Shown: piece after piece, positions 17,067 to 37,322 of the stretch
How the letters are laid out: every line of letters begins with the position of its first letter
Position numbering within the stretch: the stretch's first letter is position 1
Virus record (IMG/VR): IMGVR_UViG_3300030107_004732
Coordinates: 1 to 64,000 of that record
DNA: 64,000 nucleotides
Direction: 5' to 3' (one strand)
From: a virus
The notes under the pieces: model-generated
The model's database searches: none
The model's input: the letters and a program-made list of their open reading frames with translations, nothing else
What the model was told of the DNA's origin: nothing
Position numbers and translations under genes: made by a program

Positions 17067-17099
17067 TGGACCATCTCCTTTTCTGTCGTTCCCTCAACT

Positions 17100-17155
17100 G
17101 CATATTAAATATGCCTTCGGTTCAGACTAAAGTGAAGTTCGGTAGACGGTCTACC
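17100..17155 (-). other. Tandem hairpins upstream of capsid gene
   Basis: Two perfect 6-bp, 3-nt-loop inverted repeats, at 17141-17155 (GGTAGA/TCTACC) and 17100-17114 (GCATAT/ATATGC), lie in the 93-nt gap between the scaffold stop and the capsid start. Neither is followed by a U-tract on the transcribed strand. They probably act as RNA stabilising or processing elements for the capsid mRNA. A promoter here cannot be excluded. Confidence 0.45.
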
Positions 17156-17159
17156 CAAT

Positions 17160-18038
17160 CTAACCGAACAAGTTATCTACATTACCATCAAGGCCTAATA
17201 TACCATCAAATAATTGATCATCTTTTGATTTATCAGCTGTTCCTTGACTGTTCGAATCGCTAGCAGTTGTAGGGATATTTCTTACATTTTTCATTTGAGT
17301 AAGCATATCCTGTTTAGTAGAATTGGCCACGTTTGTATTTGCTTTATCTTTGTTTAAAAGATAATAGACATCATCAATGGTTAATTTACGAGATTTTGCC
17401 TGTTCTTTAAAACTTGCAAATTCTTCTTCTGTCATCCCATGCTTTTTAACAAATTCAGCTTCCATATTTTTTTGAGCTATTTTAGCTTGCATTTTTTGAG
17501 CATTTTGCTTTTCACGGCTTAAAACACTACCAACTCTTTGCTGAACTATTCCATCTATATGAGCATTCATAACTTTAGCAGAATCCGAATCAGGATTTTC
17601 CATAGCTTCTGTAGCATCATACATAAAATCTTCAGAAAGATTTAGTTGTTCTTTAACGTCTTTAGCAGGTTGACCACCATTTTTAAAATATGATCTAACA
17701 TGGTCTACTAAACCACTGTCGCGTTTCATTGCATCGAGAACAGGTACAAATGGTTTTAAGTCTTTAAGCTGTTCATTCATTTTAATAGCTTCTCTACTTG
17801 AATCCTTATACCTTTTTTTGTATGGATTGTCCTCATTATCCCAGTTCACATTAGAGCCTTGTGATTGTTCGTGGGTTACCATTTCGGAGCCACTTTCACT
17901 TTGGGTTACTTCTGCGTTATTAACTTCCCCTTCTGCCACCATTCCATTAACGGAATTTTCAATTTGGCCAAAGAAATCGTTAGAGTCATCCATGATATTA
18001 TCTACCACTTTTGAGTTACCTTCTACTTCGTTTGACAT
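17160..18038 (-). CDS. Putative scaffolding protein
   Basis: 292 aa between portal and capsid genes, the usual scaffold position. It is acidic at the N-terminus (Asn/Glu/Asp-rich, residues 1-75). The middle is helical and Lys/Gln-rich (about 95-235, SREAIKMNEQLKDLKP), and the C-terminus is short and acidic. This low-complexity helical make-up is typical of scaffolding proteins. SD: AAAGGAGAAAG. Confidence 0.65.
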   Translation of the reverse strand: MSNEVEGNSKVVDNIMDDSNDFFGQIENSVNGMVAEGEVNNAEVTQSESGSEMVTHEQSQGSNVNWDNEDNPYKKRYKDSSREAIKMNEQLKDLKPFVPVLDAMKRDSGLVDHVRSYFKNGGQPAKDVKEQLNLSEDFMYDATEAMENPDSDSAKVMNAHIDGIVQQRVGSVLSREKQNAQKMQAKIAQKNMEAEFVKKHGMTEEEFASFKEQAKSRKLTIDDVYYLLNKDKANTNVANSTKQDMLTQMKNVRNIPTTASDSNSQGTADKSKDDQLFDGILGLDGNVDNLFG

Positions 18039-18073
18039 TCTTTCTCCTTTTCTTAAAAAAAAATTAAAGTAAT

Positions 18074-20419
18074 TTAATCATTACCATCTGTGTTTTGCAA
18101 ATCATTTTTTAAATTATTTATAGCCATTTGTGCCTGAGCATTAGTTTCTGTAATAATTTTTTGAGAATCGGCATCTAATTTTGCTGAATTTTTTTGAACT
18201 TGATTTTTCATTTCAGCTTGCATTAATTTTTGCTCACCCTCTGTTTGCAATAACTCTTTTTCAATTTCAGACTTAACTTCTTCTTTCTTTTTATTAATTT
18301 CAACTGCAGCTTGCATTACTTTATCTTTAATACCAGATTGAACAAGTTGTCTTTCTAAAGTTTCTATAGTTCCACTTAAATCTTTTATTTGTTCTTCTTG
18401 TGAACCTAACTGACTTTGCATTTGAGAATACATTGATTTTCTTTTAGCTATTTGCTCTTTATTCTTAATATCAGTTTCAGCAAGTAAAGCTATATCATCA
18501 ATAATACCTAATTGCATTAATTCTTTTAATTCTGCAACATAAGCCCATCTATTAACAGGCAATGTTGATCCAGCGACTATTCTTACATCAAATTTAGCAG
18601 CAGAATAATCCATAATTTTTCCTACAGCTTCCCCAAAGTCGTTATAAATTGGAATATTTATTTCAACTTTTCTTTCCTCTTGTAAAGCACTTGGTTGCAC
18701 AATCCTGAATACTTTTTGCGCAGTGTAAACACTTTGTGTAAATTGTTTGACTAAAGTTCCTAATTGTTTTAATGCAGGTTCTAAAGAATTTTGCATCCAT
18801 TGTTTAATCCTCCTTGTTCCATATTCATCTAAGGCTAACATGCCTCTATAAGTTTCGTTTGCTGCTCCTGAATCTCCCATCATAGAGCTGTATATACCTG
18901 CTAAGTATTCCATATCATTTTTTGCGCTTTGAACTATTTGAAAAAACGCACTATTTAATGGAGCAGGTTGTACTGGTGTTGGTGGTGTTGAGCCAGGTCT
19001 AATAGGTAACAAAGCTCCAGGAGAGCTAGAATATCTTTCCCAATAATCAGTATCTATACTTCCTTCTTCATGCATCCATCTTAAACTACTTCCTAAAGAA
19101 GCATTATGAACTAATATTTGATGTGATTTATTTATTTCTCTTTGTTTACCTATTAATGGTGATACTGCTGATATTGGAAACGGAGTACCTGTCCATTTAA
19201 AATGAAAAGGAATAATTGGATACTCTGTTATCCCTTCTGGTAACACTTTTGTATATAAAGTTTTATCTCCTACAACACAACATAATTTTATTCTTGTTCC
19301 ATAAAACTGAACATAATCAACTAAAGTTTCTGAAAAGTTTGGATCTTTTTTAATAAGATTAAATTCTTCTTCAGTAATAATAGTATTTTGAACAGTACTT
19401 GCTTTTTCTTGTAATTCAGCCATCATAGATTGAGAAGCTTGTTGAATTTCTTGCTCTATAGCTTTTTGCATATTGGCTATTTCAAGCTCATATCTTTCTG
19501 GAATCATTTTACCTTCTTGAACAGCTATTTGCATTTGTTGTTGTTGTTCTAAAAATTGAACTTGTTTTTCTGCTTGCAGTTGCTTCATTGCTTCTTCAAC
19601 TTGCATTTTTAATTGATCAAGAACTTGAGGTTCTAACTTTTGTCTATAAAAAGCATTAATATAAGAAACTTTTATTTTTTCATAATGTTCCATTAGTTCT
19701 ATTAAATCATCATGTTCTCCATCTAAAGTAACAGACTCATTAGAATCAATATCTTTATAAGAAAAATCTTTTCTATCAGAACCTGTAGACTTTTCGCTAT
19801 AATCAAAATCTTGATCATCTATACTAGAAGCCTTTTTAATTTTTGATTTATGTTCAGGAAATAATGAATACAAATGTTCTTTTGGTAGAATCTTTCTTAC
19901 AACTATATAATTAGCATCTCTAAACAACATATCTCTAGATTTTGGATCTACAAACACATCAAATGGTTCTGGGTTTTTAATAATAACTTCACCCATACCA
20001 TTATCAGCGTCTTTATCTACATTAACAAGTAAATAACCTATAGATTTAGTAACAGCATCATTTATTGCATTAGCATATAAAGTTGAGCCATCAGATTGGT
20101 CCCAAATATAATCAGCCATATCAGAAAATACTGAAGCAACATCTACATCAGACCCTTCTGCACCAACTGCTTGCCATCTAGGTTTACTAGAAGTTGCATA
20201 AAAGTTTAACATTTCTACAACAGGCATAATTCTGTTGATAGTAAAAGTAGGCATACCTTGCTCTTCTAATGCAATTCTTTCATCTTCAGTTAATTGATTA
20301 TCATGAGCAAAATCATAACCCTTTTGATTTACATATTCCCATTGAATCCTTGAAGAACTATTTGCTAAATCAAAAATATCTTTTATACGTTGTGCATTTT
20401 TATCTATTTTCTTTGCCAT
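18074..20419 (-). CDS. Portal protein (P22-type)
   Basis: 781 aa, the large size of podoviral P22-like portals. The N-terminal segment (YDFAHDNQLTEDERIAL) and the following 'FTINRIMPVVEMLNFY' and 'KNPEPFDVFVDPKSRD' segments match the conserved pattern of this family. A long Gln/Glu-rich coiled coil occupies about residues 270-350 and another the last ~110 residues, as expected for the barrel region. Located downstream of the terminase and upstream of scaffold and capsid. The start overlaps the stop of a short interrupted ORF (TAATGG). Confidence 0.85.
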   Translation of the reverse strand: MAKKIDKNAQRIKDIFDLANSSSRIQWEYVNQKGYDFAHDNQLTEDERIALEEQGMPTFTINRIMPVVEMLNFYATSSKPRWQAVGAEGSDVDVASVFSDMADYIWDQSDGSTLYANAINDAVTKSIGYLLVNVDKDADNGMGEVIIKNPEPFDVFVDPKSRDMLFRDANYIVVRKILPKEHLYSLFPEHKSKIKKASSIDDQDFDYSEKSTGSDRKDFSYKDIDSNESVTLDGEHDDLIELMEHYEKIKVSYINAFYRQKLEPQVLDQLKMQVEEAMKQLQAEKQVQFLEQQQQMQIAVQEGKMIPERYELEIANMQKAIEQEIQQASQSMMAELQEKASTVQNTIITEEEFNLIKKDPNFSETLVDYVQFYGTRIKLCCVVGDKTLYTKVLPEGITEYPIIPFHFKWTGTPFPISAVSPLIGKQREINKSHQILVHNASLGSSLRWMHEEGSIDTDYWERYSSSPGALLPIRPGSTPPTPVQPAPLNSAFFQIVQSAKNDMEYLAGIYSSMMGDSGAANETYRGMLALDEYGTRRIKQWMQNSLEPALKQLGTLVKQFTQSVYTAQKVFRIVQPSALQEERKVEINIPIYNDFGEAVGKIMDYSAAKFDVRIVAGSTLPVNRWAYVAELKELMQLGIIDDIALLAETDIKNKEQIAKRKSMYSQMQSQLGSQEEQIKDLSGTIETLERQLVQSGIKDKVMQAAVEINKKKEEVKSEIEKELLQTEGEQKLMQAEMKNQVQKNSAKLDADSQKIITETNAQAQMAINNLKNDLQNTDGND

Positions 20420-20562
20420 TATTTCCCTTGTTTATATTTATTACTTGCTACTATAAATTCACTACCTTTCCAATGTGAAGAACCTTTCGGACTTTTTTTA
20501 TGCCTTTTCCCAACTGGATGTGGCGTACCTTCTTCTGGTCATATGTGCATTTTTTTGCTCAT
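20419..20562 (-). pseudogene. 48-codon ORF with one in-frame UGA at codon 8
   Basis: The frame starts at an ATG overlapping the stop of the RG-rich gene (TAATG, 20562) and ends in a TAA overlapping the portal start (TAATGG, 20419), exactly 48 codons including the final stop. Codon 8 is TGA (20541-20539). The translation reads MSKKMHI, then stop, then PEEGTPHPVGKRHKKSPKGS..., a coherent basic peptide. Both ends use the operon's usual overlap style, suggesting a real gene. The UGA may be a sequencing or assembly error, a recent mutation, or read through. Other genes here end in UGA, so the whole genome does not use UGA as a sense codon. Confidence 0.55.
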
Positions 20563-21122
20563 TAGTACCCCGAATTATTATTATTTAATTTATTATTTCT
20601 TCTTCTACCTAATAAATTATTTTGTTGATTTCTTTGATTAGGTCTCATAAAGTTTCTACGACCCATTGAAGGTGTATTCATAACTCTAGAACCTCCACTA
20701 CCTGGTTTACGCATTTCAATATTAGGTAAACCTGCTGGTCTACGCCCTTGACCAACTCCTGTTGGGGAAAATCTTTGCCCTTGTCCTTGATTACCTATAC
20801 GTGGCGTATTTTGTGGCTGAACGTATCTAGGATCTTGTCGCCTTCCACCACCAACATTATCTTGCATACCACCTTGTCCACCAAATGTTGTATTATTATT
20901 TTGAGGTTGAACATATCTAGGGTCTTGTCTTCTTCCAGCACCAAAATTTCCAGTATTATCTGAAGTTTGGCCTGCAGGCATTGGACCTGGGTTTACTCCA
21001 AATCTTTGTGGTCCTCTAGGAGCAAACCTAGAGTTTCCAGCCCTTCTTCTGCCCATATTATTGTTCATTCCTGAGTTTCCCCCCGCTGGCATAGGTCTAC
21101 GACCTCTTCTATTAAATGCCAT
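20562..21122 (-). CDS. RG/N-rich disordered protein, 186 aa
   Basis: 186 aa dominated by Gly, Arg, Asn, Gln and Pro, with essentially no hydrophobic core, so predicted disordered. It has an internal repeat of GRRQDPRYVQPQN at about residues 64-76 and 93-105, and many RR/GRR groups. Such composition suggests nucleic acid binding or condensate-like behaviour. It lies between large terminase and portal, so a packaging or head role is possible. SD: AAGGAGAAACC. No family recognised. Confidence 0.6.
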   Translation of the reverse strand: MAFNRRGRRPMPAGGNSGMNNNMGRRRAGNSRFAPRGPQRFGVNPGPMPAGQTSDNTGNFGAGRRQDPRYVQPQNNNTTFGGQGGMQDNVGGGRRQDPRYVQPQNTPRIGNQGQGQRFSPTGVGQGRRPAGLPNIEMRKPGSGGSRVMNTPSMGRRNFMRPNQRNQQNNLLGRRRNNKLNNNNSGY

Positions 21123-21131
21123 GGTTTCTCC

Positions 21132-22700
21132 TTAAGCTACGACCCAACTTTTTGCGCTAGGTCTGTGTTTTGTCCAAACACCCTCTCTGCTTTTTTGCAT
21201 AGATTTAGGTGGATGAGCATGTTTACATGCATACGCTAATGCGTCTATAGTATCATCATGCCCCATTCTTGGACCAAATGTAAAAATTTCATGTTGTAAA
21301 TCATAATGATCTTTTCTTACAAACATACTTCTTATTGCAAATCTTTGTGCTAATATTTCTTGTATTCTATCTCTTTTACTCATTCTATTTCCTGGCTTTT
21401 CAGCACAATATTTAACACTAAAATCATTCTTTCTTCTCATTTCTGAAACCAATGCTTGAAAGACTGGTTTAGACATAGTAGTGTCTTCAATGGTAAAAAG
21501 AGAAGGGTGATAAATTTTGTTATAATCAAATAAATGATCCACAATCCCTTTTTTACCAGTTCCAGGAATCCCCAAAACAGGTAATGACCTATTACGAAGA
21601 TAGTCAAGAACATAGCAATTATTGTCACTATCAATAGCGACCATGATGATAACACTAAAGTCAGTATCTCTTCTAGCGCTATCCGTAGCTGGGTCAACGC
21701 CCGCAAAGACATTAACAGGTTTTTCAGTTCCGTCTTCAAGTATGACGTAGTTAATCCCAGTATCTTCATCATGTTTAAATCTTCCATCCCAAAACTGTAA
21801 ATGATCTCTTGTAAAAATAGCATCTTCACTATTTTGTACTTCCATCATATACTCTTGATAAAACTTTTGTGGCTGACCTGAATCGGCATAGAACTTCTTT
21901 TTACGTTCCATTTCTTTTTTTCCAAACCAACCAGGCCATAAAGATGAACCATCTGGCTGTAAAGCTTTATAACTTATCACATGCCAACTATATTTTTCAC
22001 CTTGTTTAACAGCTTTTTCTTTACCCACAAGTATATTTTGTATAAAGGAGTCAAAGTGAACAGGAGTTCCATTGATCCTAAGCCTACCCGTATGAGGCTC
22101 AAGAGCAGGGAAAACAACTGCGGTAACAAGATTCGCAATTTTAGCACGAGACTCAGACGTAATGGTATTATTTTCATCTTCAAAGTCGTCAAGAACAATG
22201 AGGTCATATCTTTTATGGAGTTTAGCTCCTCCTCTAATGCCTGACAAATTTGATTTTGATATGAGTTTACATCCATTTGTTAGCTCTATATCGTCTTCTG
22301 TCCATTTCTTACCTTTTAAATTACCGAAATAATACGAAACTTTTTCATTATATTCCAAATGGTATTTTATATAATCCAAATTAGGTACACTGATTTTAGA
22401 CGATGCGGCTACCCATCCATAAAATAAAGGGCTTGTAGCAAAACAAAAATCTCTCATAATACTACATTTAGTTAATACTGTTTTACCATGTCCTCTAGGC
22501 AGAATAACAGCTAACTGTCTTTTATCCATATCCATTAAAGAATCTGCTACCTCATAATGAAAAAAGGGAGTTTCACTTCTCATAAAATCGTCTGCTAAAA
22601 ATAATTTACCAAATGAAATCATGTCTTTTTGTGCAAGCATAAGAGCTTCTTCTGCCTTGCTAACGTTTTCTTTATTTATATTTAAGTTATATTTTGACAT
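21132..22700 (-). CDS. terL: Terminase large subunit
   Basis: 522 aa. The ATPase domain has Walker A PRGHGKT (68-74) and Walker B LIVLDD (167-172) with the catalytic acidic residue after it. The C-terminal nuclease domain shows D336 (AGVDPATD), E405/D406 (FTIEDTT) and D482/D483 (GHDDTIDALAY), the RNase H-like metal ligands. It powers DNA translocation into the procapsid and cuts the concatemer. It starts in overlap with the stop of the 383-aa gene. Confidence 0.95.
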   Translation of the reverse strand: MSKYNLNINKENVSKAEEALMLAQKDMISFGKLFLADDFMRSETPFFHYEVADSLMDMDKRQLAVILPRGHGKTVLTKCSIMRDFCFATSPLFYGWVAASSKISVPNLDYIKYHLEYNEKVSYYFGNLKGKKWTEDDIELTNGCKLISKSNLSGIRGGAKLHKRYDLIVLDDFEDENNTITSESRAKIANLVTAVVFPALEPHTGRLRINGTPVHFDSFIQNILVGKEKAVKQGEKYSWHVISYKALQPDGSSLWPGWFGKKEMERKKKFYADSGQPQKFYQEYMMEVQNSEDAIFTRDHLQFWDGRFKHDEDTGINYVILEDGTEKPVNVFAGVDPATDSARRDTDFSVIIMVAIDSDNNCYVLDYLRNRSLPVLGIPGTGKKGIVDHLFDYNKIYHPSLFTIEDTTMSKPVFQALVSEMRRKNDFSVKYCAEKPGNRMSKRDRIQEILAQRFAIRSMFVRKDHYDLQHEIFTFGPRMGHDDTIDALAYACKHAHPPKSMQKSREGVWTKHRPSAKSWVVA

Positions 22701-26656: not shown

Positions 26657-26864
26657 TATTTATACAGCAACATTATTGTTCCCAGATGGTCATTTAGAGG
26701 TCTGGGAGCATATTGTTTATAATTATGCAGATGCTAGAACAGTGCATCTTTATTTAGAACTGTTTCGTCTTAATGGTGTGAAAATAGTAGATCAAACAAA
26801 TGATAAACTACTATATATACCTAAAATAGTATCATCATATCAATTAAGGGGGATGTTACAATGA
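26649..26864 (+). CDS. Hypothetical protein, 71 aa
   Basis: 71 aa. The ATG at 26649 is chosen over a GTG at 26640 because AGGAGG lies 8 nt upstream of it. A beta-hairpin-like start (IYTATLLFPDGHLEVWE) precedes a helix. It overlaps the DUF1287-type gene as ATGA. Confidence 0.55.
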   Translation: MNDIYTATLLFPDGHLEVWEHIVYNYADARTVHLYLELFRLNGVKIVDQTNDKLLYIPKIVSSYQLRGMLQ

Positions 26865-27424
26865 TAAGACTATTATTATTATTAAGTGTGTGTTATGGAT
26901 ATGTTAATCTTGACCTATTTGTAACACATGCTGCTAAACAGACTCATAGTTTTGTACAATATGATGGGTCTTATTATGATATTGATTACCCAATGGGTGA
27001 CATATCAAGAGATAAAGGTGTGTGTACTGATGTAATAATCAGAGCATATCGTGATTGTTGTGGAGTAGATCTACAAGAGTTAGTGTACGTAGATATGATA
27101 AATAATAATCATTTATATGATACACCTTATGAGGTTGATAATAATATTGACCACAGAAGAGTAAAGAACTTAAGAGTATTCTTTGAGCATAACGGATATG
27201 TTAAGCCAAATGATGATGAGTTCTATCCAGGTGATATAATTACTTGGAACCTACGCAAAAGAGGTAGTTTACCTCATATAGGAATATTATCTCATTTATA
27301 TAGTATAGATGGACATCCACTGGTTATCCACAATTCTGGTGGTGGTGTAGTTATTCAAGACATATTGTTTAAATATGATATAACTGGCCATTATGTATAT
27401 CGTGGAGAAGGGAGAATAAGATAA
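26861..27424 (+). CDS. DUF1287-family putative cysteine hydrolase, exported
   Basis: 187 aa. An N-terminal hydrophobic signal-like segment (residues 2-16, IRLLLLLSVCYGYV) precedes the domain. The order matches DUF1287 proteins of the NlpC/P60 (papain-like) superfamily: 'YPMGDISRDKGVCTDVIIRA' with candidate nucleophile C55, 'IDHRRVKNL' (96-104), 'YPGDIITWNL' (122-131), 'HIGILS' with H139, and 'VIHNSGGG' (155-162). It would act on the cell envelope. Its place in the early operon, away from the lysis genes, is unusual and suggests a role other than final lysis. Confidence 0.75.
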   Translation: MIRLLLLLSVCYGYVNLDLFVTHAAKQTHSFVQYDGSYYDIDYPMGDISRDKGVCTDVIIRAYRDCCGVDLQELVYVDMINNNHLYDTPYEVDNNIDHRRVKNLRVFFEHNGYVKPNDDEFYPGDIITWNLRKRGSLPHIGILSHLYSIDGHPLVIHNSGGGVVIQDILFKYDITGHYVYRGEGRIR

Positions 27425-29232: not shown

Positions 29233-29733
29233 ATGGGCTTTGATTTAAGTGGTGTTAATCCACAAATAAATAAACCTGAATCTGAATATAAATACTTTAA
29301 AGAAGATAGTGAATTATGGATGTCAGACGACAAAAAAGAACGTGAAAAATACTTTAAAGAAATGGATGATTACCATGAAAATAATCCAGGAGTATATTTT
29401 CGCAATAATGTTTGGTGGTGGAGACCATTATGGTCTTATGTTATCAATTTATGTGACGATATACTTACAGATGATGATATGGAACATGGATCATATAATA
29501 ATGGACATGAAATATCTCAAGAAAAAGCATATAAAATAGGTTTAAGACTATTAAAAGACATAGATTCAGGTAAAACTGCTGTTTATGAAGAATTACACAC
29601 AAAAAATAATGCAGAATTAAGTCAATCTAGCGATAAAGATGCGGCATTTATGTCTAATTATCCATTTGATGTAGATAATGTAAGAAATTTTGCTAATTTC
29701 TGCTTACAATCAGGAGGTTTTACAATATGTTAA
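29233..29733 (+). CDS. Conserved phage protein (NNVWWWRPLW motif), 166 aa
   Basis: 166 aa from the ATG at 29233, preceded by GGAGG. A longer frame from a TTG at 29164 has no ribosome site and is rejected. It contains 'YFRNNVWWWRPLWSYV' (about 55-70) and 'NNGHEISQEKA' (about 92-102). I know this pattern from a widespread hypothetical phage family starting MGFDLxG. Molecular function unknown. Confidence 0.75.
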   Translation: MGFDLSGVNPQINKPESEYKYFKEDSELWMSDDKKEREKYFKEMDDYHENNPGVYFRNNVWWWRPLWSYVINLCDDILTDDDMEHGSYNNGHEISQEKAYKIGLRLLKDIDSGKTAVYEELHTKNNAELSQSSDKDAAFMSNYPFDVDNVRNFANFCLQSGGFTIC

Positions 29734-29876
29734 CATTTTACCCAGTAAAAACTGAAGAAGAACTAATAACTGAGCTTCATCATGTAAGAAATGATATTGC
29801 TTTATTAAAAATAAGGCAAAATAAGATAATTGATGAACTTGTAACATTAAAAGGAGATAAAGATGCCAAAAACTAA
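29727..29876 (+). CDS. Small coiled-coil protein, 49 aa
   Basis: ATG at 29727 overlapping the previous stop, with AGGAGG upstream. 49 aa, mostly one charged helix (TEEELITELHHVRNDIALLK). It overlaps the next gene by 14 nt. Function unknown. Confidence 0.55.
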   Translation: MLTFYPVKTEEELITELHHVRNDIALLKIRQNKIIDELVTLKGDKDAKN

Positions 29877-30039
29877 GAAAACTAGAGATCCAATAGATGA
29901 AATTGATAATATATTAAAAACTATAGATAAATTAGAAGGTAATATGGATATTTTAAACACAAATATGCAACATGCTATTGATTTACAGGAAGAAATAGGA
30001 AGAGATTTAGACAAGATTAAAAAAAGGATGGGATTATGA
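29863..30039 (+). CDS. Small coiled-coil protein, 58 aa
   Basis: ATG at 29863 with AAAAGGAG upstream. 58 aa with a basic start (MPKTKKTRDP) followed by heptad-like helix (IDNILKTIDKLEGNMDIL). Ends as ATGA overlap with the next ORF. Function unknown. Confidence 0.55.
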   Translation: MPKTKKTRDPIDEIDNILKTIDKLEGNMDILNTNMQHAIDLQEEIGRDLDKIKKRMGL

Positions 30040-30125
30040 TAAATTGGATGAATCTTTGTGTATATGGTGGAATATTTCTACTTGGAATGATAATGTGGTA
30101 TTATATAGTGAAATGGTGGTTCTAA
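30036..30125 (+). CDS. Small membrane protein, 29 aa
   Basis: 29 aa starting in ATGA overlap and ending in TAATG overlap, so coupled at both ends. The product is a single hydrophobic segment rich in Trp/Tyr/Met (CVYGGIFLLGMIMWYYIV). Candidate membrane micropeptide; function unknown. Confidence 0.45.
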   Translation: MINWMNLCVYGGIFLLGMIMWYYIVKWWF

Positions 30126-30319
30126 TGGATATATTTGAACTAGAAAAAAACAATGTAGTACTTAAAAGAACTGTAAGATACCTTGATGGTGAAATAAAAG
30201 AAATAGTAGAAAAACAAATATTAAGTAACCTAACCAAGATTGATAATTTCTTTGATGATTTAGAAAGAGAATATCAGTCTATTAACTCTTATGAAGAAGG
30301 AGGCCAAAATGGCAACTAA
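30125..30319 (+). CDS. Hypothetical helical protein, 64 aa
   Basis: 64 aa from the ATG at 30125 (TAATG overlap). A longer frame from 30044 would overlap the membrane ORF and lacks a ribosome site. Charged helical product (FELEKNNVVLKRTVRYLDGE). It overlaps the ubiquitin-like gene by 11 nt and holds that gene's AGGAGG site within its last codons, so the two are tightly coupled. Confidence 0.55.
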   Translation: MDIFELEKNNVVLKRTVRYLDGEIKEIVEKQILSNLTKIDNFFDDLEREYQSINSYEEGGQNGN

Positions 30320-30527
30320 AACAATAAAATTTCTACAAGGTGGCGGCTTTGTAGAAAGACAAACTAACGCTGATACTGTTGAGCAATTAAGAAATGAATT
30401 TCCAGATGATATTAGTAATAATGCATCTGTTGCTGTTAATGGTGTTTCTGTAACTAACACTCATGCTATTGCTGAAGGTGATATTGTTGCAGCTGTTAAT
30501 AATAATAAGTCTGGCGGTGATCAGTAA
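30309..30527 (+). CDS. Ubiquitin-like (beta-grasp, MoaD/ThiS-type) protein
   Basis: 72 aa from the ATG at 30309, chosen because GAAGGAGGCC lies directly upstream; an in-frame ATG at 30291 lacks this. The layout fits a beta-grasp fold: hairpin (KTIKFLQGGGFVERQT), helix (TVEQLRNEF), strand 'SVAVNGVSV' (40-48) and final strand 'EGDIVAAVNN' (56-65). The end is KSGG followed by two residues (DQ). A Gly-Gly near the C-terminus with a short tail is typical of Ubl precursors that need a protease to expose GG. An E1-like enzyme and JAMM protease lie in the same operon, supporting a conjugation or sulfur-transfer role. Confidence 0.7.
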   Translation: MATKTIKFLQGGGFVERQTNADTVEQLRNEFPDDISNNASVAVNGVSVTNTHAIAEGDIVAAVNNNKSGGDQ

Positions 30528-30536
30528 TTATTAACT

Positions 30537-30603
30537 TAAGGTGGTCGCTGGTCTCGAGACTAAAAGATAGATAGGCACTATTTAAAGCGCTATCTCCACC
30601 TTA
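30537..30603 (+). ncRNA. Stem-closed RNA element C
   Basis: TAAGGTGG (30537-30544) pairs with CCACCTTA (30596-30603), a perfect 8-bp closing stem for a 67-nt element. Inside are GTC-TCGA-GAC and AGATAG/CTATCT stems. Lies in the 183-nt gap after the ubiquitin-like gene, just before a second such element. Confidence 0.5.
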
Positions 30604-30608
30604 TAACT

Positions 30609-30693
30609 TATAGGGCTGTAGTGACAGGCGAGTCAATAACTGTAGCCAGCAATTGGCGTTATGTGAGACTAACGAGGGTCAATCAGCCCTATA
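30609..30693 (+). ncRNA. Stem-closed RNA element D
   Basis: TATAGGGCTG (30609-30618) pairs perfectly over 10 bp with CAGCCCTATA (30684-30693). Inside is a nested series AGTC/GACT, ATAAC/GTTAT and GCCA/TGGC ending in a 5-nt loop. It ends about 10 nt before the GGAGGG of the next gene, so it could control access to that start. A GTG frame from 30621 crosses it but has no ribosome site. Confidence 0.6.
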
Positions 30694-30710
30694 TTAAACT
30701 TGGAGGGTTT

Positions 30711-32078
30711 ATGACAGATTATAGAGATTATGATTGCATTGTAGATGGCTCAATAGAACAATGCTTAGAAGAAATAGAAGTAGGAGATCTTGAAGAACAC
30801 ATTTATTATGGTCCTCAAGCAGACATAATGGAGAAATTACAAAGATTTAATGCTAGACACAGAGCCGATTTAGAAATTACTAAAACATTTAAATGGAAAC
30901 GTGGTTCTTATGAAAGAGTTGCTGAACTTATGATGAGAGGTCTTGGATTTAGAAGAAGGCCAAGTGGTATGTATAATTATTTACATAGAGAAGATTGGTT
31001 TAGAACTCATACCTGGGATTCAATTAAAAGCCAATTACAAGATATGGATTCTGACTTGTACAGGTTAAGAAATAATGGTGAAGTATGGTTAGATGATCCT
31101 TCTGTTCTTGTAGAAAGAAAAAATTTGTATTCTAATTATTTGATAGAAAAAGTAGAACTTGCTGATGAAATAATAGAAAATGTAGATATAATGGCTGAAA
31201 TGTATCATCAGTTATTTGTTCATCCAACATCACGCTCAAGTAGAAGATATATGCTAGTAACAACACTACGTATTACTCCAGATGTAATGAAAGTTTATGT
31301 AACTGAAGGTAGAAATAGTAATGAACCTGCTAAACATATAGAAAATATAGCTTGTGATACAGATGTATACTTAAATCTTATTACATATCCATTGCAAGTT
31401 ATGACAAGACATTCTAATTATGATAGGCCTTCAATTGATGTAAGTATTCTTGGTCAAGTTGAACAACCAAGCGATAAAGGATATTTATCATTTCCTTATA
31501 TTTCTGGTAGCAGAAACTACAGAGGCGGTTATTTTGGAAATAGTGTTTGCTTTGGTGACCAATCAACAGATGTGCATAATTCATTATATAGATATGATTT
31601 ACCATCTTTTGTATTGCAATGTATACCTTGGGCTACATCATATACTAATATGACACAACCACATAGCAACATTAAAATGATGTATCATGGTGAACCTAGC
31701 AGATTATCTGATGAATACAGATCAATATTTGGTACAAATACATCTAATATGTGTACTTACATACCAGATGGTGATAATGATTATTGTGATGTAAATGAAT
31801 GTGCTCTTAGACATAGTTGTACATTATATAAAGATGCACATCCTCAACCAGTAACACCAGAACAAGCTGAACAAATGACCTTACAATGGGCTACTAGAAT
31901 GGGTGGCGTTAATCACGCTGCTCCAACTATAATACACACAACTGATAATTCAGGCAATCCTGTAACTGTAACTAGAGATAGAACGTCAATGGAACAAGCT
32001 GCAGATGCTCAAGAACCACCAATACAAGGTGATCGTGAACAGTGGCCTGATGAATCACCACAAGGTGACGAAATGTAA
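30711..32078 (+). CDS. Candidate E2-like protein with Cys cluster, 455 aa
   Basis: 455 aa from the ATG at 30711 (TTGGAGGG upstream). It lies between the ubiquitin-like gene and the JAMM/E1-like genes. The segment around residues 262-310 has 'FPYISG', then 'FGNSVCFGDQ' with C280, then 'DLPSFVLQCIPWATSYT'. This is reminiscent of the HPHI...G-x-C-LG...helix layout of E2/UBC-fold proteins. Further on is a four-Cys cluster (C348, C359, C364, C370) that could bind zinc. The C-terminal ~70 residues are acidic and low-complexity. The E2 assignment is inference from operon context and a weak motif; an unrelated phage protein remains possible. Confidence 0.45.
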   Translation: MTDYRDYDCIVDGSIEQCLEEIEVGDLEEHIYYGPQADIMEKLQRFNARHRADLEITKTFKWKRGSYERVAELMMRGLGFRRRPSGMYNYLHREDWFRTHTWDSIKSQLQDMDSDLYRLRNNGEVWLDDPSVLVERKNLYSNYLIEKVELADEIIENVDIMAEMYHQLFVHPTSRSSRRYMLVTTLRITPDVMKVYVTEGRNSNEPAKHIENIACDTDVYLNLITYPLQVMTRHSNYDRPSIDVSILGQVEQPSDKGYLSFPYISGSRNYRGGYFGNSVCFGDQSTDVHNSLYRYDLPSFVLQCIPWATSYTNMTQPHSNIKMMYHGEPSRLSDEYRSIFGTNTSNMCTYIPDGDNDYCDVNECALRHSCTLYKDAHPQPVTPEQAEQMTLQWATRMGGVNHAAPTIIHTTDNSGNPVTVTRDRTSMEQAADAQEPPIQGDREQWPDESPQGDEM

Positions 32079-32094
32079 CTTAAAAGGAGGAATA

Positions 32095-32238
32095 ATGGAC
32101 GCTAGAACTTCATACTTTAGTAATGAAATTAAAGACTTACAGTTTAAGTTTAAATCATTGCGTAATGATCATGAAACACTTAAAAAAGAATATAAAATAC
32201 TACAAAAACAAGTAAAAAAGCTCGAGGAGGGTAAATAA
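32095..32238 (+). CDS. Small coiled-coil protein, 47 aa
   Basis: ATG at 32095 with AAAAGGAGG upstream, TAATGG overlap with the JAMM gene. 47 aa, nearly all a charged coiled coil (FKSLRNDHETLKKEYKILQK). It sits between the E2 candidate and the protease and may be an accessory subunit of the module. Confidence 0.6.
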   Translation: MDARTSYFSNEIKDLQFKFKSLRNDHETLKKEYKILQKQVKKLEEGK

Positions 32239-33209
32239 TGGAAATATTAATACATAAAGAATCTTGGGATAAGATTATAAATTATGCTAAAGCTGCTTAT
32301 GTCACAGAAAAAGCTGAAATAGGTGGTATGGCTGTAGTAACACAAGATAAAGATGGTGACTGGACTATTGAAAATCCAGTTATATTACCACAAGAAATAG
32401 CAGGGACTACGTGTGACCTAGATAAAGAAGAATTGGCTACGTATTATACTCAAATGGCTATGAAATACAAAGACCAGAAGTTTAGATTTTGTTGGTGGCA
32501 CAGTCATCACACAATGAACGCATTCTGGAGTGGTACAGATTTATCTAGCATTGATGAGTATGGTGAAGGTGAATCAGACGTTTCATTTGCACTTGTTGTT
32601 AATCTAAAAGAAGAATACAAATGTAGAATATCTGTATGGAAACCAGTAGAAATACATCAAGATGTAGAAGTTAAAATATTAGATGATACACCTGAAATAG
32701 AAATACCACTTGATATAGTTACAGAAGTTAAAGCTAAATGTAGAAAACGTACTTATGTAAGTTCTTATAAATCTGGTGGATCTGTATTAGAATCGCCAAA
32801 TAAAAAGCAGTTAGTAATTGGTCAAAATGGATTTGAAAGTAGTTATAATTGGGCTAAATATAGTTGGCTTGATGATGATTTAGAAAAAATTGTTACACCA
32901 CAAGAACAAACTAACTTTGAAGCTAAATGGGAATATGCGACTAATAAAATAACAGAGTTTATTAGACAATTTAATACAGGAGCTTGGAATATGCACAAAT
33001 ATAAATCTGCTGTAACTCATACAAATAAAATATTAGAACCATATGGGATTCAAATAGAAACATTAAACAAGCGTGAGTTAACAGAGTTTATTGAAATGGA
33101 TTCTGAACCATATGAACTGTTAACAGCTGATGATAAATATCATGATATAGCAGAAAGTTTAATAGATTGCGCATCTTATAATCAATCTTATGGAGGGTAT
33201 GGAATATGA
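32238..33209 (+). CDS. JAMM/JAB-domain metalloprotease, 323 aa
   Basis: The N-terminal ~155 residues form a JAB/MPN+ domain: glutamate E27 in AEIGGM, then HSHHTMNAFWSGTD in which H88, H90, S98 and D101 satisfy H-x-H-x7-S-x2-D exactly. This zinc site hydrolyses (iso)peptide bonds after Gly-Gly in deubiquitinase-like enzymes. The C-terminal ~150 residues are helical and unrecognised, and might bind the partner proteins. It overlaps the E1-like gene by 4 nt. Likely job: trimming the Ubl precursor (GG-DQ) and/or removing it from targets. Confidence 0.88.
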   Translation: MEILIHKESWDKIINYAKAAYVTEKAEIGGMAVVTQDKDGDWTIENPVILPQEIAGTTCDLDKEELATYYTQMAMKYKDQKFRFCWWHSHHTMNAFWSGTDLSSIDEYGEGESDVSFALVVNLKEEYKCRISVWKPVEIHQDVEVKILDDTPEIEIPLDIVTEVKAKCRKRTYVSSYKSGGSVLESPNKKQLVIGQNGFESSYNWAKYSWLDDDLEKIVTPQEQTNFEAKWEYATNKITEFIRQFNTGAWNMHKYKSAVTHTNKILEPYGIQIETLNKRELTEFIEMDSEPYELLTADDKYHDIAESLIDCASYNQSYGGYGI

Positions 33210-33859
33210 TAAATACTAGAAGCCAAGATATTGCAGATATATCAGGCATTAAGTTTCACATTGTAGGTTGCGGGGCTATTGGAAGCTCCGTAGCCACACA
33301 ATTAGTAAGACTTGGTGGCAATAATTTTGTTTTATATGATTTTGATAAAGTTGAAATACCTAATGTAGGTGTAAGTCAATATAATGAACAAGATGTAGGG
33401 CTATCTAAAGTAGGTGCTCTAACAAATCATATGAAAAAAATTAATGTAATGATTGAAATAGAGGGAATTGTTGATAAATTTAAATATTATCATGGAAATA
33501 AAGATGATATATTAGTATTAGGTTTAGATAGTATGTCTGCTCGTATGGAAATAGTTAAATTGTTAGCAAAATGCCCTTATAAACCATCATTTGTAATAGA
33601 TGGTCGTATGGGTGCAGAACAATATCAACAGTATATATATGATAATATTACTGTTAAACAATATGAAAAAGATTGGTATTCTGATGAAGATTCTGATCCA
33701 GAACCATGCACTCGTAAAGCTACATCTTACTGTAGTAATATGAGTGGAAGTTTTATATCTAATTCTATTAAGAACATAGTTATGAAACAGCCTTACTTTA
33801 AGGAAATAATTTTCAACTTTTCAACATTAATACTTGATAAAAAGAAATTAGTTTCTTAA
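33206..33859 (+). CDS. E1/ThiF-like adenylyltransferase, 217 aa
   Basis: Rossmann-fold E1/ThiF/MoeB superfamily: nucleotide-binding GCGAIG (21-26), acidic D45 after the second strand, 'DKVEIPNVGVSQ' (47-58), K68 in LSKVGA, and the GLD motif (106-108). Near the end 'EPCTRKATSYCSNMSGS' (166-182) gives Cys168 and Cys176 as candidate thioester or active-site cysteines. It is shorter than canonical MoeB, like phage and plasmid ThiF proteins. It would adenylate the C-terminal glycine of the adjacent Ubl. It overlaps the JAMM gene as ATGA and ends at a hairpin-bearing gap. Confidence 0.85.
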   Translation: MINTRSQDIADISGIKFHIVGCGAIGSSVATQLVRLGGNNFVLYDFDKVEIPNVGVSQYNEQDVGLSKVGALTNHMKKINVMIEIEGIVDKFKYYHGNKDDILVLGLDSMSARMEIVKLLAKCPYKPSFVIDGRMGAEQYQQYIYDNITVKQYEKDWYSDEDSDPEPCTRKATSYCSNMSGSFISNSIKNIVMKQPYFKEIIFNFSTLILDKKKLVS

Positions 33860-33867
33860 ATTCTAAA

Positions 33868-33939
33868 CCCTTTATATCAAAGGGATCTTATGTATAGCAC
33901 ACTGAACAGGGTAGTATAACCCCTATTTCTGCCCTGTTC
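33868..33939 (+). terminator. Paired hairpins after E1 gene, weak terminator or RNA element
   Basis: CCCTTT/AAAGGG with a 5-nt loop (33868-33884), then GAACAGGG/CCCTGTTC (33904-33939). The second is followed by TCAAAATAAAA, not a U-run. They close the ubiquitin-like module and precede the ERF gene. Partial termination or processing is likely rather than strong termination. Confidence 0.4.
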
Positions 33940-33962
33940 TCAAAATAAAAAGGAGGAAGCTC

Positions 33963-34466
33963 GTGACAAATATCGATGTTTCAAAACAAACTGGTATTGC
34001 TAAAAGTGTATTAGAAGCAAAAGCCAAAAACGAATCAAATGAGAAATCTTTTGATGAATCTCATGATAGAAGACATGATGAATGGAAATCACCTCAATTA
34101 GATCAATTAGCAGCAGCATTAGCTAAAGCTCAATCTGAAATGGAAGGTGCTAAAAAAGAGAGTACAAATCCATTCTTTAAGTCTAGTTATGCAGACTTAC
34201 ATGCAGTAATTAAATCTTCATTTCCATACTTATCTAAAAATGGACTATCTGTTAGTCAAGGTAATGAAGTAATTAAAGGCGCTGTATGTGTAACAACAAC
34301 ATTAATGCACGCATCAGGTCAATGGATGAGAAGTAAAATTAAACTTCCATTAGCTAAAGTAGACGCACAAGGCGTTGGAGCTGCTGTAACTTATGGTAGA
34401 AGATATGGTTTATCTGCTATGGTAGGTATAGCTCAATACGATGATGATGCACAATCAATTTCTTAA
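33963..34466 (+). CDS. erf: ERF-family single-strand annealing protein
   Basis: 167 aa from a GTG start with AAAGGAGGAAG upstream. Residues ~60-160 carry the ERF signature: 'KKESTNPFFKSSYADLHAV', 'LSKNGLSVSQ', 'LMHASGQWM' and 'GAAVTYGRRYGLSAMVGI'. ERF proteins anneal complementary single strands for phage recombination. The C-terminus is short, lacking a long basic tail. It is followed by an SSB-like gene, the usual partner. Confidence 0.9.
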   Translation: MTNIDVSKQTGIAKSVLEAKAKNESNEKSFDESHDRRHDEWKSPQLDQLAAALAKAQSEMEGAKKESTNPFFKSSYADLHAVIKSSFPYLSKNGLSVSQGNEVIKGAVCVTTTLMHASGQWMRSKIKLPLAKVDAQGVGAAVTYGRRYGLSAMVGIAQYDDDAQSIS

Positions 34467-34479
34467 TTAAGGAGAACAT

Positions 34480-35016
34480 ATGAGAACAATGACAATAAAG
34501 TCAGGTAGTAGTAATAATCAATATTCTACTGGGTGGCATGAATTAATAGTTTCAAAAGCTAAATATGGTGATTGGAATGGAACAAAATGTATAGACATTT
34601 ACTTTGATGAATATCCAGAAAACTTTAACATGAGAGTTTATGCTAAAACAGGAACTGATGGTGAAGAATTTGCTATTGGTCAAATATATAGATTTGCTAA
34701 TGCTGGAATAAGTAGCGCATTAGAAGGCCCTGATGGCACTAAAGTTGTTAAAATGGATGATAGTGAAGAAGCTTTAATAGGTAAAAAGATGAATGTTTAC
34801 TTTTATAAAGATGGTAAATATTCTAGAATGTTATCTAAAACTGCTCCTACAGAATTTACAAATGCTGTAGAATCATTCACAACAGATGATGTTAGCTATT
34901 GGAAAGGTAAAGCTATAGATTTCTATAAGAAATATGTAGAACCTAAACTTAAAACAAGCTCAGAAGAATCCGTTTCTTCTTCCGAGACCTCCGAGAGTGA
35001 CGATATACCCTTTTAA
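34480..35016 (+). CDS. Single-stranded DNA-binding-like protein
   Basis: 178 aa. The beta-rich N-terminal ~110 residues are OB-fold-like (TGWHELIVSKAKYGDWNG). A Ser/Glu-rich linker (about 155-172) leads to the terminal SDDIPF, the classic acidic SSB tip that recruits replication proteins. Placed between ERF annealase and primase-helicase. The core does not look like bacterial SSB, so it is a phage-type analogue. SD: AAGGAGAACAT. Confidence 0.7.
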   Translation: MRTMTIKSGSSNNQYSTGWHELIVSKAKYGDWNGTKCIDIYFDEYPENFNMRVYAKTGTDGEEFAIGQIYRFANAGISSALEGPDGTKVVKMDDSEEALIGKKMNVYFYKDGKYSRMLSKTAPTEFTNAVESFTTDDVSYWKGKAIDFYKKYVEPKLKTSSEESVSSSETSESDDIPF

Positions 35017-35471: not shown

Positions 35472-35572
35472 TAGAAATAATACTTATAAGTTTATCAATA
35501 TTTATATTAGCTGTAGGAACTTTAATACTGTTAATAAAAAGTGAAGTGGAGAATATACATGGAGATGATTAA
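35468..35572 (+). CDS. Small membrane protein, 34 aa
   Basis: Starts in ATGA overlap with GGAGG upstream. One hydrophobic segment (IEIILISLSIFILAVGTLIL) then a polar tail. It overlaps the primase-helicase start by 14 nt. Function unknown. Confidence 0.45.
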   Translation: MIEIILISLSIFILAVGTLILLIKSEVENIHGDD

Positions 35573-37322
35573 AGAAATAGCATTTGGAGTTAGTAATAGA
35601 GGTAATTTTCAATCTAAAGATGAAGTTTGTGAGTTACAAGGCACTGACACTGATCTATTTGTGTCTTTATATGACTATGATGAAACAGTTGTAGCATATT
35701 ATAGTAAAAAAGGAAGTTTATCAGGATTTGATGGTAACATATATATGCCTACAGAATTTATATTAGACGTTGATGGATCTAGTATAAGAAATGCTAGAGA
35801 TAAATTAATAGGTTTATCAGATATATTAGATGATTGCAATCTATACTATAGAATATATTTTAGCGGAACAGGTTTTCATGTTGGTATACACAATTCAGCA
35901 TTTAAATGGGAACCAAGTCCTAATTTACACGTAAGAGTAAAAGAAGAGCTAACTAAAGCTGGTATCTATAAATTTGCAGACCCCTCTGTTACTGATAAAA
36001 CAAGAATAATAAGACTAGTTAATACTAAAAATACTAAATCTGGATTATATAAAATCTGTATAGAAGATAACTTACAAATATTATCTTCGTCAGATAAAGT
36101 GTTTAAAGAAGAGCTGATTAAATTAGCATCAGAACCTAGAAACATAGATTACGAAGATATTGAATTGAGTAGCCCAGTATTTGATGTAAGAGATAAAGAA
36201 AAACCTGAAGAAAAACCTGAAATTAAGGTAAGAAATAAGCGTGATCCTGTTGCTAACACTTGTATACAGAAAATGTTAGATGGTGCTCCACACGGTAAAC
36301 GTCATATGGTCGCTCTTAGAATAGCATCTCATTTAAGATGGAACTTTCCAGAAAATATTGTAAGATTAATTATGGAAGATTGGCGCATTAGAGTTAACGA
36401 AGGTGCTAAAAGCGAGTTTAAAAAAGAAGAGATGGATGGTATAGTAGAAGGTTGTTATACTGGTCATGATGGACAAGGTTACAGATATGGTGCTGATGAT
36501 CCAGTTATACAGTTTTATTGTAACTCTAAATGTACGTTACACAGAGGTGCTAAAGCCGAAAACATGATGGATTCAAGTAGTATGGAAGATGAATTAATAA
36601 ACTTTTATGCTCAAGACTTAAAACCACTTAATTTAGGTGAGCCATATGATATGAATTTCCCTATATATCCAGGTGAAACAGTCATTATTCAAGCTCCACC
36701 TGCAAGTATGAAGACTATGTTGCTTCAAAATTGGGTAAATTATTTTAAAAGACCAACATACTTTGTTGAAATGGAAATGTCTCCAAGGCAAATATGGTCT
36801 AGATTTGTTCAGATAGAAATGGGGTGGGATGAAAATCAATTAGCTAATCATTACAAACAAATGAAAAATGGTATGGATAAAAGATTTGAATGGTTAACTG
36901 TAGACTATTCAGCTCCATATGCGCATGAATTAGAAAGAAGAATCACCAGCCTACCTGTTAAGCCAGAAATAGTAATTGTTGACCATTTGGGGCTATTTAA
37001 GAGCAAACAGAAAGATAATAACATGAAAGTTGAGGAAGCTAGCCAAGCAATTATGGAATTAGCTGTAAGACAAAATGTGATCGTCTTTGCTGTAAGCGAA
37101 GTATCTAAAGCTGCCTTTAAAGAAGGTATGGACATATCTTCATCTAGAGGTTCATTTAGAATTGCATATAATGCAAATAAATTAATATCTTTAAAGCCAT
37201 ATAAGAACAAAGAAACAGGTCTTGTTGAGCTTATAGATATTAAATCAGATAAAAACAGAGAGAAAGAACATCTGTACGCTAGATTAACAGTTAATAACGT
37301 AAGAATAGAAAAGGAGGGCTAA
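35559..37322 (+). CDS. Primase-helicase fusion (AEP-like primase + RecA-like helicase)
   Basis: 587 aa from the ATG at 35559 (GTGGAG upstream). The N-terminal ~200 residues carry archaeo-eukaryotic primase-like motifs: DVD (70-72), SGTGFHV (102-108) and TRIIRL (148-153). A middle helical region with Cys pair CNSKC (about 321-325) follows. The C-terminal ~200 residues are a RecA-like ATPase: Walker A APPASMKT (379-386) and Walker B IVIVD (471-475). The Walker A lacks its usual glycines. It would prime and unwind at the fork. No DnaG-type TOPRIM primase or DNA polymerase is present, so the host polymerase or a gene outside the window must finish replication. Confidence 0.75.
   Translation: MEMIKEIAFGVSNRGNFQSKDEVCELQGTDTDLFVSLYDYDETVVAYYSKKGSLSGFDGNIYMPTEFILDVDGSSIRNARDKLIGLSDILDDCNLYYRIYFSGTGFHVGIHNSAFKWEPSPNLHVRVKEELTKAGIYKFADPSVTDKTRIIRLVNTKNTKSGLYKICIEDNLQILSSSDKVFKEELIKLASEPRNIDYEDIELSSPVFDVRDKEKPEEKPEIKVRNKRDPVANTCIQKMLDGAPHGKRHMVALRIASHLRWNFPENIVRLIMEDWRIRVNEGAKSEFKKEEMDGIVEGCYTGHDGQGYRYGADDPVIQFYCNSKCTLHRGAKAENMMDSSSMEDELINFYAQDLKPLNLGEPYDMNFPIYPGETVIIQAPPASMKTMLLQNWVNYFKRPTYFVEMEMSPRQIWSRFVQIEMGWDENQLANHYKQMKNGMDKRFEWLTVDYSAPYAHELERRITSLPVKPEIVIVDHLGLFKSKQKDNNMKVEEASQAIMELAVRQNVIVFAVSEVSKAAFKEGMDISSSRGSFRIAYNANKLISLKPYKNKETGLVELIDIKSDKNREKEHLYARLTVNNVRIEKEG

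Follow-up and report, generated by a model that had tools for sequence, protein, structure and literature searches.

We analysed a 64,000-nucleotide (nt) stretch of viral DNA (IMG/VR record IMGVR_UViG_3300030107_004732, positions 1 to 64,000; hereafter the window) in which a run of genes on one strand probably encodes a phage-borne system for attaching and removing a ubiquitin-like protein (Ubl). An earlier reading of the bare sequence, here called the original prediction, had described five consecutive coupled genes at this place: a beta-grasp protein, a candidate conjugating enzyme (E2), a coiled-coil protein, a JAMM protease and a ThiF-like activating enzyme (E1). All five open reading frames (ORFs) were found at the positions given for them, and four form the core of the phage module:

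30309-30527, plus strand: Ubl gene, 72 amino acids (aa), C-terminal KSGGDQ
30711-32078, plus strand: E2-like candidate, 455 aa, ATG start, ribosome-binding site ggagg
32238-33209, plus strand: JAMM/JAB metallopeptidase, 323 aa
33206-33859, plus strand: E1/ThiF-family activating enzyme, 217 aa, minimal, UBA5-like, with Cys168

The AlphaFold2 model of the smallest protein (predicted local distance difference test, pLDDT, 84.2) is a beta-grasp with a disordered tail, built from strands 4-10 and 13-19, helix 24-30, and strands 40-43, 46-48 and 59-63. Foldseek matched it in the PDB to MoaD, Mth1743, Caldiarchaeum ubiquitin, ubiquitin and SUMO (E about 2e-3, probability 1.00); a tblastn search of named phages with the Ubl returned no match. 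The protein ends in K67-S-G-G70 followed by a D-Q tail. The motif K-[S/T/V]-G-G is invariant in 40/40 Ubl sequences, of which 13 end exactly at GG and the others run on for 1-9 residues, so that the tail measures 0-9 residues overall. An invariant GG followed by a tail of freely varying length is the pattern of a trimmed and activated modifier, and the presence of the JAB protein even where GG is already terminal argues for a deconjugating role besides maturation. Some relatives carry extra domains or long tails after KxGG (L122:671-1111, L129:1075-1515, L074:5493-5840), which are possibly Ubl fusion precursors.

The two enzymes that flank this chemistry are readily assigned to families. The E1 exceeded the curated Pfam cut-off for ThiF (E 5e-19), and its profile matched UBA5 best in the PDB (2e-15), followed by MccB, UBA6, bacterial Cap2 and BubCD. 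R5, G21-x-G23, D45, D47, N53, K68, D108, R113 and C168 are invariant in 44/44 sequences, crAss and Fpv phages included; C168 is our putative catalytic cysteine, given its invariance and its location in the domain. The JAMM residues E27 and H88-x-H90-x7-S98-x2-D101 are likewise invariant (41/41, crAss phages included). The closest PDB profile match of the JAB protein was a Caldiarchaeum Rpn11-like protein (2e-7), with eukaryotic Rpn11 next; the single sequence matched Pfam Prok-JAB at 2e-4, below the curated cut-off. The locus has three of the features expected of a prokaryotic Ubl-conjugation operon, namely a beta-grasp Ubl with conserved C-terminal glycine, an E1 with its nucleotide-site residues and cysteine, and an intact JAMM motif. 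These results bear out three identities proposed from the sequence: a 72-aa beta-grasp protein with a GG-DQ end, on whose fold the original prediction had staked itself, a protease with an exact JAMM motif, and an E1/ThiF-like enzyme.

The same folds could serve a sulfur-carrier pathway, in which a ThiS/MoaD-like Ubl, processed by JAB, would be thiolated by the E1 for modification of tRNA, a nucleotide or a cofactor. This reading draws on a Pfam ThiS match to the single Ubl sequence (9e-4, below the curated cut-off), on the ThiF family matches and on MoaD being among the top folds. Membership of these carrier families was rejected on curated cut-offs (ThiS 20.2 vs 22.5, moaD 14 vs 66, thiF 50.5 vs 275 bits), and rhodanese, ThiG, MoaE and cysteine desulfurase were not seen among the recurrent neighbours, whose clusters are partly identified. 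Moreover, the E2-like protein with its invariant cysteine is never missing, and we regard a sulfur-carrier role as very improbable.

That protein, 100% identical to UniProt A0A516L9P6, has its cysteine (C280) conserved in 53/53 sequences in the context HP[YF]IS...(10-20)...VC-[FLWT]-G-[DN]. W307 and TxP (315-317) vary little or not at all, and a C-terminal cluster CX10CX4CX5C (C348, C359, C364, C370; each at least 90% conserved) may bind zinc. Its structural model (pLDDT 84.4, predicted template modelling score 0.75) shows a long helix, a five-strand stretch, the cysteine straight after a short strand, and then helices. Outside phages, the profile of the E2 candidate matched planctomycete chromosomal proteins that combine a putative E2 domain with zinc fingers (probability 76-80%, P 1.4e-5 to 2.2e-5). 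The alignment pairs HPYIS with HPHVS and C-F-G-D with C-E-G-D, together with the following helices. Its score of 50.5 compares with a maximum of 30.2 over 40 column shuffles, 16.1 for the reversed profile and at most 18.5 against six other families, and was still 47.3 when the zinc-finger part was left out.

We searched 84,980 species genomes in two scans with short peptide patterns, so that the counts are lower bounds. The first, E1-based scan gave no match; the second, with looser patterns, found two planctomycete operons, on contigs of metagenome-assembled genomes (MAGs) MHXZ01000008.1 (L176) and JANQFY010000469.1 (L175), and two contigs of crAss-like type in Spirochaetia MAGs. The planctomycete operons have the order Ubl-E2-JAB-E1, as in the phage; their Ubl is recognised by the profile of the phage Ubl (P 7e-6), their E1 is 28-30% identical to that of the phage, and both systems have a JAB protein. 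They differ in detail. The planctomycete E2 has a long RING/FYVE-like run of CxxC pairs, whereas the phage protein has a single four-cysteine cluster and a long N-terminal helical region, and planctomycete Ubl tails do not end in KxGG. The E2 plus zinc-finger family occurs in 10/294 planctomycete genomes, one of which has five copies and another six. One planctomycete genome (G009), described as having five paralogues, carries them at loci L176, L183, L194, L198, L200 and L202; they may be expanded bacterial Ubl systems.

Among phages, the arrangement of the module is strongly conserved. Protein scans of IMG/VR found 20 loci with the E2 candidate and 28 with JAB, and alignment-based scans found 37 E2-candidate loci and 402 stretches with E1 relatives, of which the best 80 were kept; gene order was read by searching every ORF of these loci with a profile of each of the four proteins. 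The order Ubl-E2-JAB-E1 on one strand was present in 38/38 loci that include 5 kb or more upstream of E1, although these include close relatives and are not 38 independent events. JAB lies immediately 5' of E1 in 65 of the 69 loci that extend 1.1 kb or more upstream. The clustering on which the original prediction had also staked itself is thus kept in related phages. Identity to the window proteins within this group falls to ~18% for E2 and 29% for Ubl and is ~48-84% for E1. Purifying selection acts on all four genes, the nonsynonymous rate (dN) being far below the synonymous rate (dS, ~0.2-1.2); dN is 0.03-0.10 for Ubl, 0.11-0.15 for E1, 0.11-0.26 for JAB and 0.18-0.52 for E2, the fastest of the four. 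In several relatives a radical SAM gene resembling spore photoproduct lyase stands between E2 and JAB or between Ubl and E2 (L012:2023-2901, L013:2699-3577, L017:7309-8187; similar ORFs at L129:1564 and L144:987). The L012 gene matches Pfam SPL at 3e-21, and this insert possibly serves phage repair of UV damage.

The set extends beyond these environmental phages. A tblastn search with E1 matched 76 named phage records, mostly crAss-like or Flavobacterium phages, with best hits at 29-33% identity; the same search with the E2 candidate matched none of the named phages. JAB is followed by E1 in crAss001, DAC15, Kolpuevirus, cr128_1, cr106_1, cr111_1, bajarodcaudo virus 1 and FpV4, and 5' of JAB in all eight lies a protein of 390-445 aa with an invariant cysteine of its own (Y[ML]HSH...C-x-G). 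Except in cr106_1, where it is short and has no Ubl-like domain, the first gene of the set encodes a protein whose N-terminus is Ubl-like, with KSGA or KSGG (RSGA in cr111_1). This domain matched the window Ubl profile with P ~1e-4 and a score of 27-28, against a shuffled maximum of 15.7. The sequence profile of the E2 candidate did not match crAss gp78, the 390-445-aa protein, significantly, though the cysteines were aligned. Structure comparison reached further. Beyond its own family, the E2-candidate model matched A0A7M1RZ27 and A0A1B0WLX5 among viral models (Foldseek against BFVD; probability 0.93-1.00, E 2e-3 to 6e-3). The former is a cr128_1 protein of 435 aa and corresponds, in both phage and length, to the gene immediately 5' of JAB-E1; the latter (420 aa) has the length of the FpV4 gene 5' of JAB, an identity drawn from length only.

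A Ubl-E2-JAB-E1 set is therefore recognisable as common to Crassvirales and Fipvunavirus, and the module is not unique to the window phage. In crAss001 (gp79-gp76), DAC15, Kolpuevirus and FpV4 (gp53-gp50), as in the window, a Ubl-like domain, a structural match of the E2 candidate, JAB and E1 are consecutive and near replication genes, here adjoining primase, uracil-DNA glycosylase (UDG) and exonuclease genes; in the crAss phages the set sits between the primase and the UDG/exonuclease genes. Unlike in the window, the Ubl has a C-terminal extension fused after KSG[A/G], the E2 candidate has no four-cysteine tail, E1 is often N-terminally extended, and an additional gene follows E1. The set spans 4232-8642 in crAss001 (L048) and 4595-8606 in FpV4 (L047); in these cultivable phages its genes carry the labels 'thiamine biosynthesis protein', 'metalloprotease' and 'hypothetical protein'.

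Ubl conjugation in bacteria is known chiefly from operons on chromosomes or mobile elements, several of which act against phages; bacterial operons have also been proposed to encode RING-type E3s and fused E2s, and the Bil, Bub and CBASS (cyclic-oligonucleotide-based antiphage signalling) systems have been tested. Bil, Bub and type II CBASS Cap2-Cap3 follow an E1, E2 and JAB logic like that of the phage module, and our E1 profile matches Cap2 and Citrobacter BubCD. The module differs from them in its phage genome, its stand-alone 217-aa E1 and its divergent E2 candidate. Assignment to the type II CBASS E2-E1 fusion was rejected, as the window E1 matches only the E1 part of E1-E2 models. No CD-NTase was noticed among the recurrent neighbour clusters, part of which were searched against families, and a PADLOC scan returned no Bil model, no comparison having been made with Bil reference sequences. 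Iyer et al. 2006 (PMC1779556) described PRTRC and type 6d bacterial operons that, like the phage module, combine Ubl, JAB, E1-like and E2-like genes within one operon. Membership of PRTRC was rejected (PRTRC_ThiF 30.7 vs a cut-off of 144.75 bits, PRTRC_A 12.9 vs 101.8 bits), and the neighbourhood of a Vibrio plasmid 'PRTRC ThiF' held no annotated PRTRC protein B for comparison. The proposed parallel to bacterial Ubl operons consequently stands for the planctomycete operons, with their homologous genes in the same order, and fails for PRTRC. The same authors noted a Ubl and JAB pair in the tail proteins I (Ubl) and K (JAB plus NlpC) of phages lambda and T1; that pair has no E1 or E2 and is located among tail-assembly genes, whereas the window module lies in the early replication region.

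Several further features lie within the module or beside it:

30610-30692, plus strand: structured hairpin RNA/DNA element in the Ubl-E2 spacer, conserved halves, variable tip
32095-32238, plus strand: small coiled-coil ORF, 47 aa, outside the conserved core
33963-34466, plus strand: neighbouring ERF-family single-stranded DNA (ssDNA)-annealing protein, outside the module (Pfam ERF 6e-23)
34480-35016, plus strand: neighbouring probable ssDNA-binding protein (SSB), acidic ESDDIPF tail, named on inspection of its sequence
35541-37322, plus strand: neighbouring primase-helicase, PHROG DnaB-like helicase and primase matches, DnaB_C

These features qualify two parts of the original prediction. To call the five genes coupled was too strong: the only overlaps are those between the coiled-coil ORF and JAB (a base) and between JAB and E1 (a few bases), and the Ubl-E2 gap of 183 nt contains the structured element. 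The coiled-coil protein is not a conserved component either; it is present in few relatives, variable there, and otherwise replaced or absent. A 485-aa ORF beginning with GTG at 30621 was rejected as the E2 start, being an over-extension that reaches into the intergenic element. The halves of the hairpin, TAGTGACAGGCGAG and ACTAACGAGGGTCAA, enclose a variable tip and are conserved across 14 distinct sequences. The position of the element differs among relatives, with copies at L113:492, L113:1237, L117:1707, L156:2934, L052:4174, L054:4414 and L079:2024. The outer stem GGGCTG/CAGCCC becomes GGGG/CCCC in other phages, and Rfam gave no match at E<=1. The element is probably separate from the Ubl module and is a candidate for a hitherto undescribed structured RNA. 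The early region also encodes a DUF1287 protein with an N-terminal hydrophobic stretch (26861-27424, plus strand; Pfam 3e-50), and the 64,000 nt contain no tRNA genes.

The neighbourhood was counted in 42 loci picked for diversity. Next after E1 comes an ERF annealing protein in 26 of them and an AAA_24 (Sak4-type) ATPase in 15, the remaining locus having an unclassified protein there; a recombination gene thus follows E1 directly in 41/42 loci, with its family swapped and its place kept. The primase-helicase is present downstream in 41/42 loci and the probable SSB gene, which has no Pfam match, in 33/42. The module itself comes and goes. The full 85,245-bp record holds two early regions and two non-identical sets of genes for major capsid protein (MCP), portal and large terminase (TerL), at window 15522-22700 and record 68479-75304, with the second part 70% (TerL), 61% (portal) and 63% (MCP) identical to the first; it is probably two related phages joined in assembly. 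A 104-kb IMG/VR relative (3300030451_002683) has two ERF genes as well. In the second genome part the slot 5' of ERF is empty (record 82175-82758, L050, corresponding to window 29733-33963), and E1 is missing altogether from two further records, L169 (51.6 kb) and L174 (54.8 kb). This pattern marks the module as accessory.

These features suggest how the module may work. The JAMM peptidase would cut the Ubl precursor behind KSGG and release DQ; the E1 would adenylate the C-terminal glycine and take up the Ubl as a thioester on Cys168, from which it would be handed to Cys280 of the E2-like protein. The four-cysteine, zinc-type tail of that protein may replace an E3 and help in the choice of substrate. 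The Ubl would then be joined to an amine on target proteins, from which the JAMM peptidase could remove it. We infer such conjugation and deconjugation with a probability of roughly three in four.

Several observations weigh against this reading. Foldseek found no UBC fold for the E2-candidate model in the PDB (best E 0.36), a Pfam scan of the 53 members found no E2 family, and a PDB profile search returned helical noise and no E2; the planctomycete 'E2' label itself comes from a sequence motif (HPHV...LCEGD plus zinc fingers) and not from a solved structure. The crAss KSGA/KSGG lies inside a longer protein and is not a classical GG end. Finally, relatives with the same ERF-primase block have no module in the same slot, from which it follows that the module is not needed for replication as such. 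The failure to recognise a UBC or Pfam E2 domain would fit a 455-aa protein that is a target, adaptor or scaffold, the Ubl being transferred straight from E1 in an E2-independent, SAMP/Urm1-like manner. We consider this unlikely given the invariant cysteine in an E2-like HPxI...C-x-G-D context and the decoy-controlled homology to the planctomycete family. An E2 role is supported by that homology, by the same operon order in planctomycetes and by the constant presence of all four partners in the phage system, so that the proposed candidate E2 stands on its Cys280 and its relatives, and falls short at the level of a recognised fold.

The weakest step of the proposal concerns the substrates. Since the place directly after E1 is taken by a recombination gene in nearly all loci, even where its family is exchanged, we tentatively suggest proteins of the phage replication/recombination complex, at somewhat less than even odds. 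The same chemistry might instead serve host takeover or counter-defence, either by tagging host defence or control proteins or by JAB stripping a host Bil/CBASS-type Ubl from phage proteins. The accessory distribution with its empty syntenic slot agrees with this, as does the recognition of the window E1 by defence-library E1-E2 models; the higher dN of E2 than of Ubl and E1 on the same branches is expected of a substrate-choosing part under shifting pressure. Against it, even very divergent phages, and Crassvirales too, keep the module next to recombination and primase genes, and a dedicated Ubl and E1 would be superfluous for a purely anti-Ubl-defence role. Host-facing targets are accordingly possible but somewhat doubtful, and we keep the two sets of targets close. 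A third use would be as a weapon between phages, tagging the virion proteins of a competitor. Bacterial Bil tags tail fibres, which offers a mechanistic precedent by analogy with bacterial Ubl defence, and the module is present or absent among related, co-occurring phages. It lies among early genes, not in a superinfection-exclusion or lysogeny neighbourhood, and such a weapon seems highly unlikely.

The open-access literature yielded no description of a complete phage E1/E2/Ubl set or of a crAss ubiquitin/ThiF system; no paper was found there that contradicts the view that its function in such phages is undescribed. More speculatively, and with appreciable doubt, the module may be an old virus-borne Ubl system common to unclassified environmental, crAss-like gut and Flavobacterium phages, in which the E2 with its zinc domain acts as E2/E3 and reversible tagging controls recombination and replication. 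If true, it would be a viral counterpart of the SUMO/ubiquitin control at eukaryotic replication forks. The finding connects E2-like proteins of viruses with a bacterial family of E2 plus zinc-finger proteins, and makes a testable pathway of what is annotated in abundant gut phages as 'thiamine biosynthesis protein' and 'metalloprotease', with the cultivable crAss001 and DAC15 as phages in which the first substrates could be found. A complete set in constant order would show that phages themselves use protein tagging.

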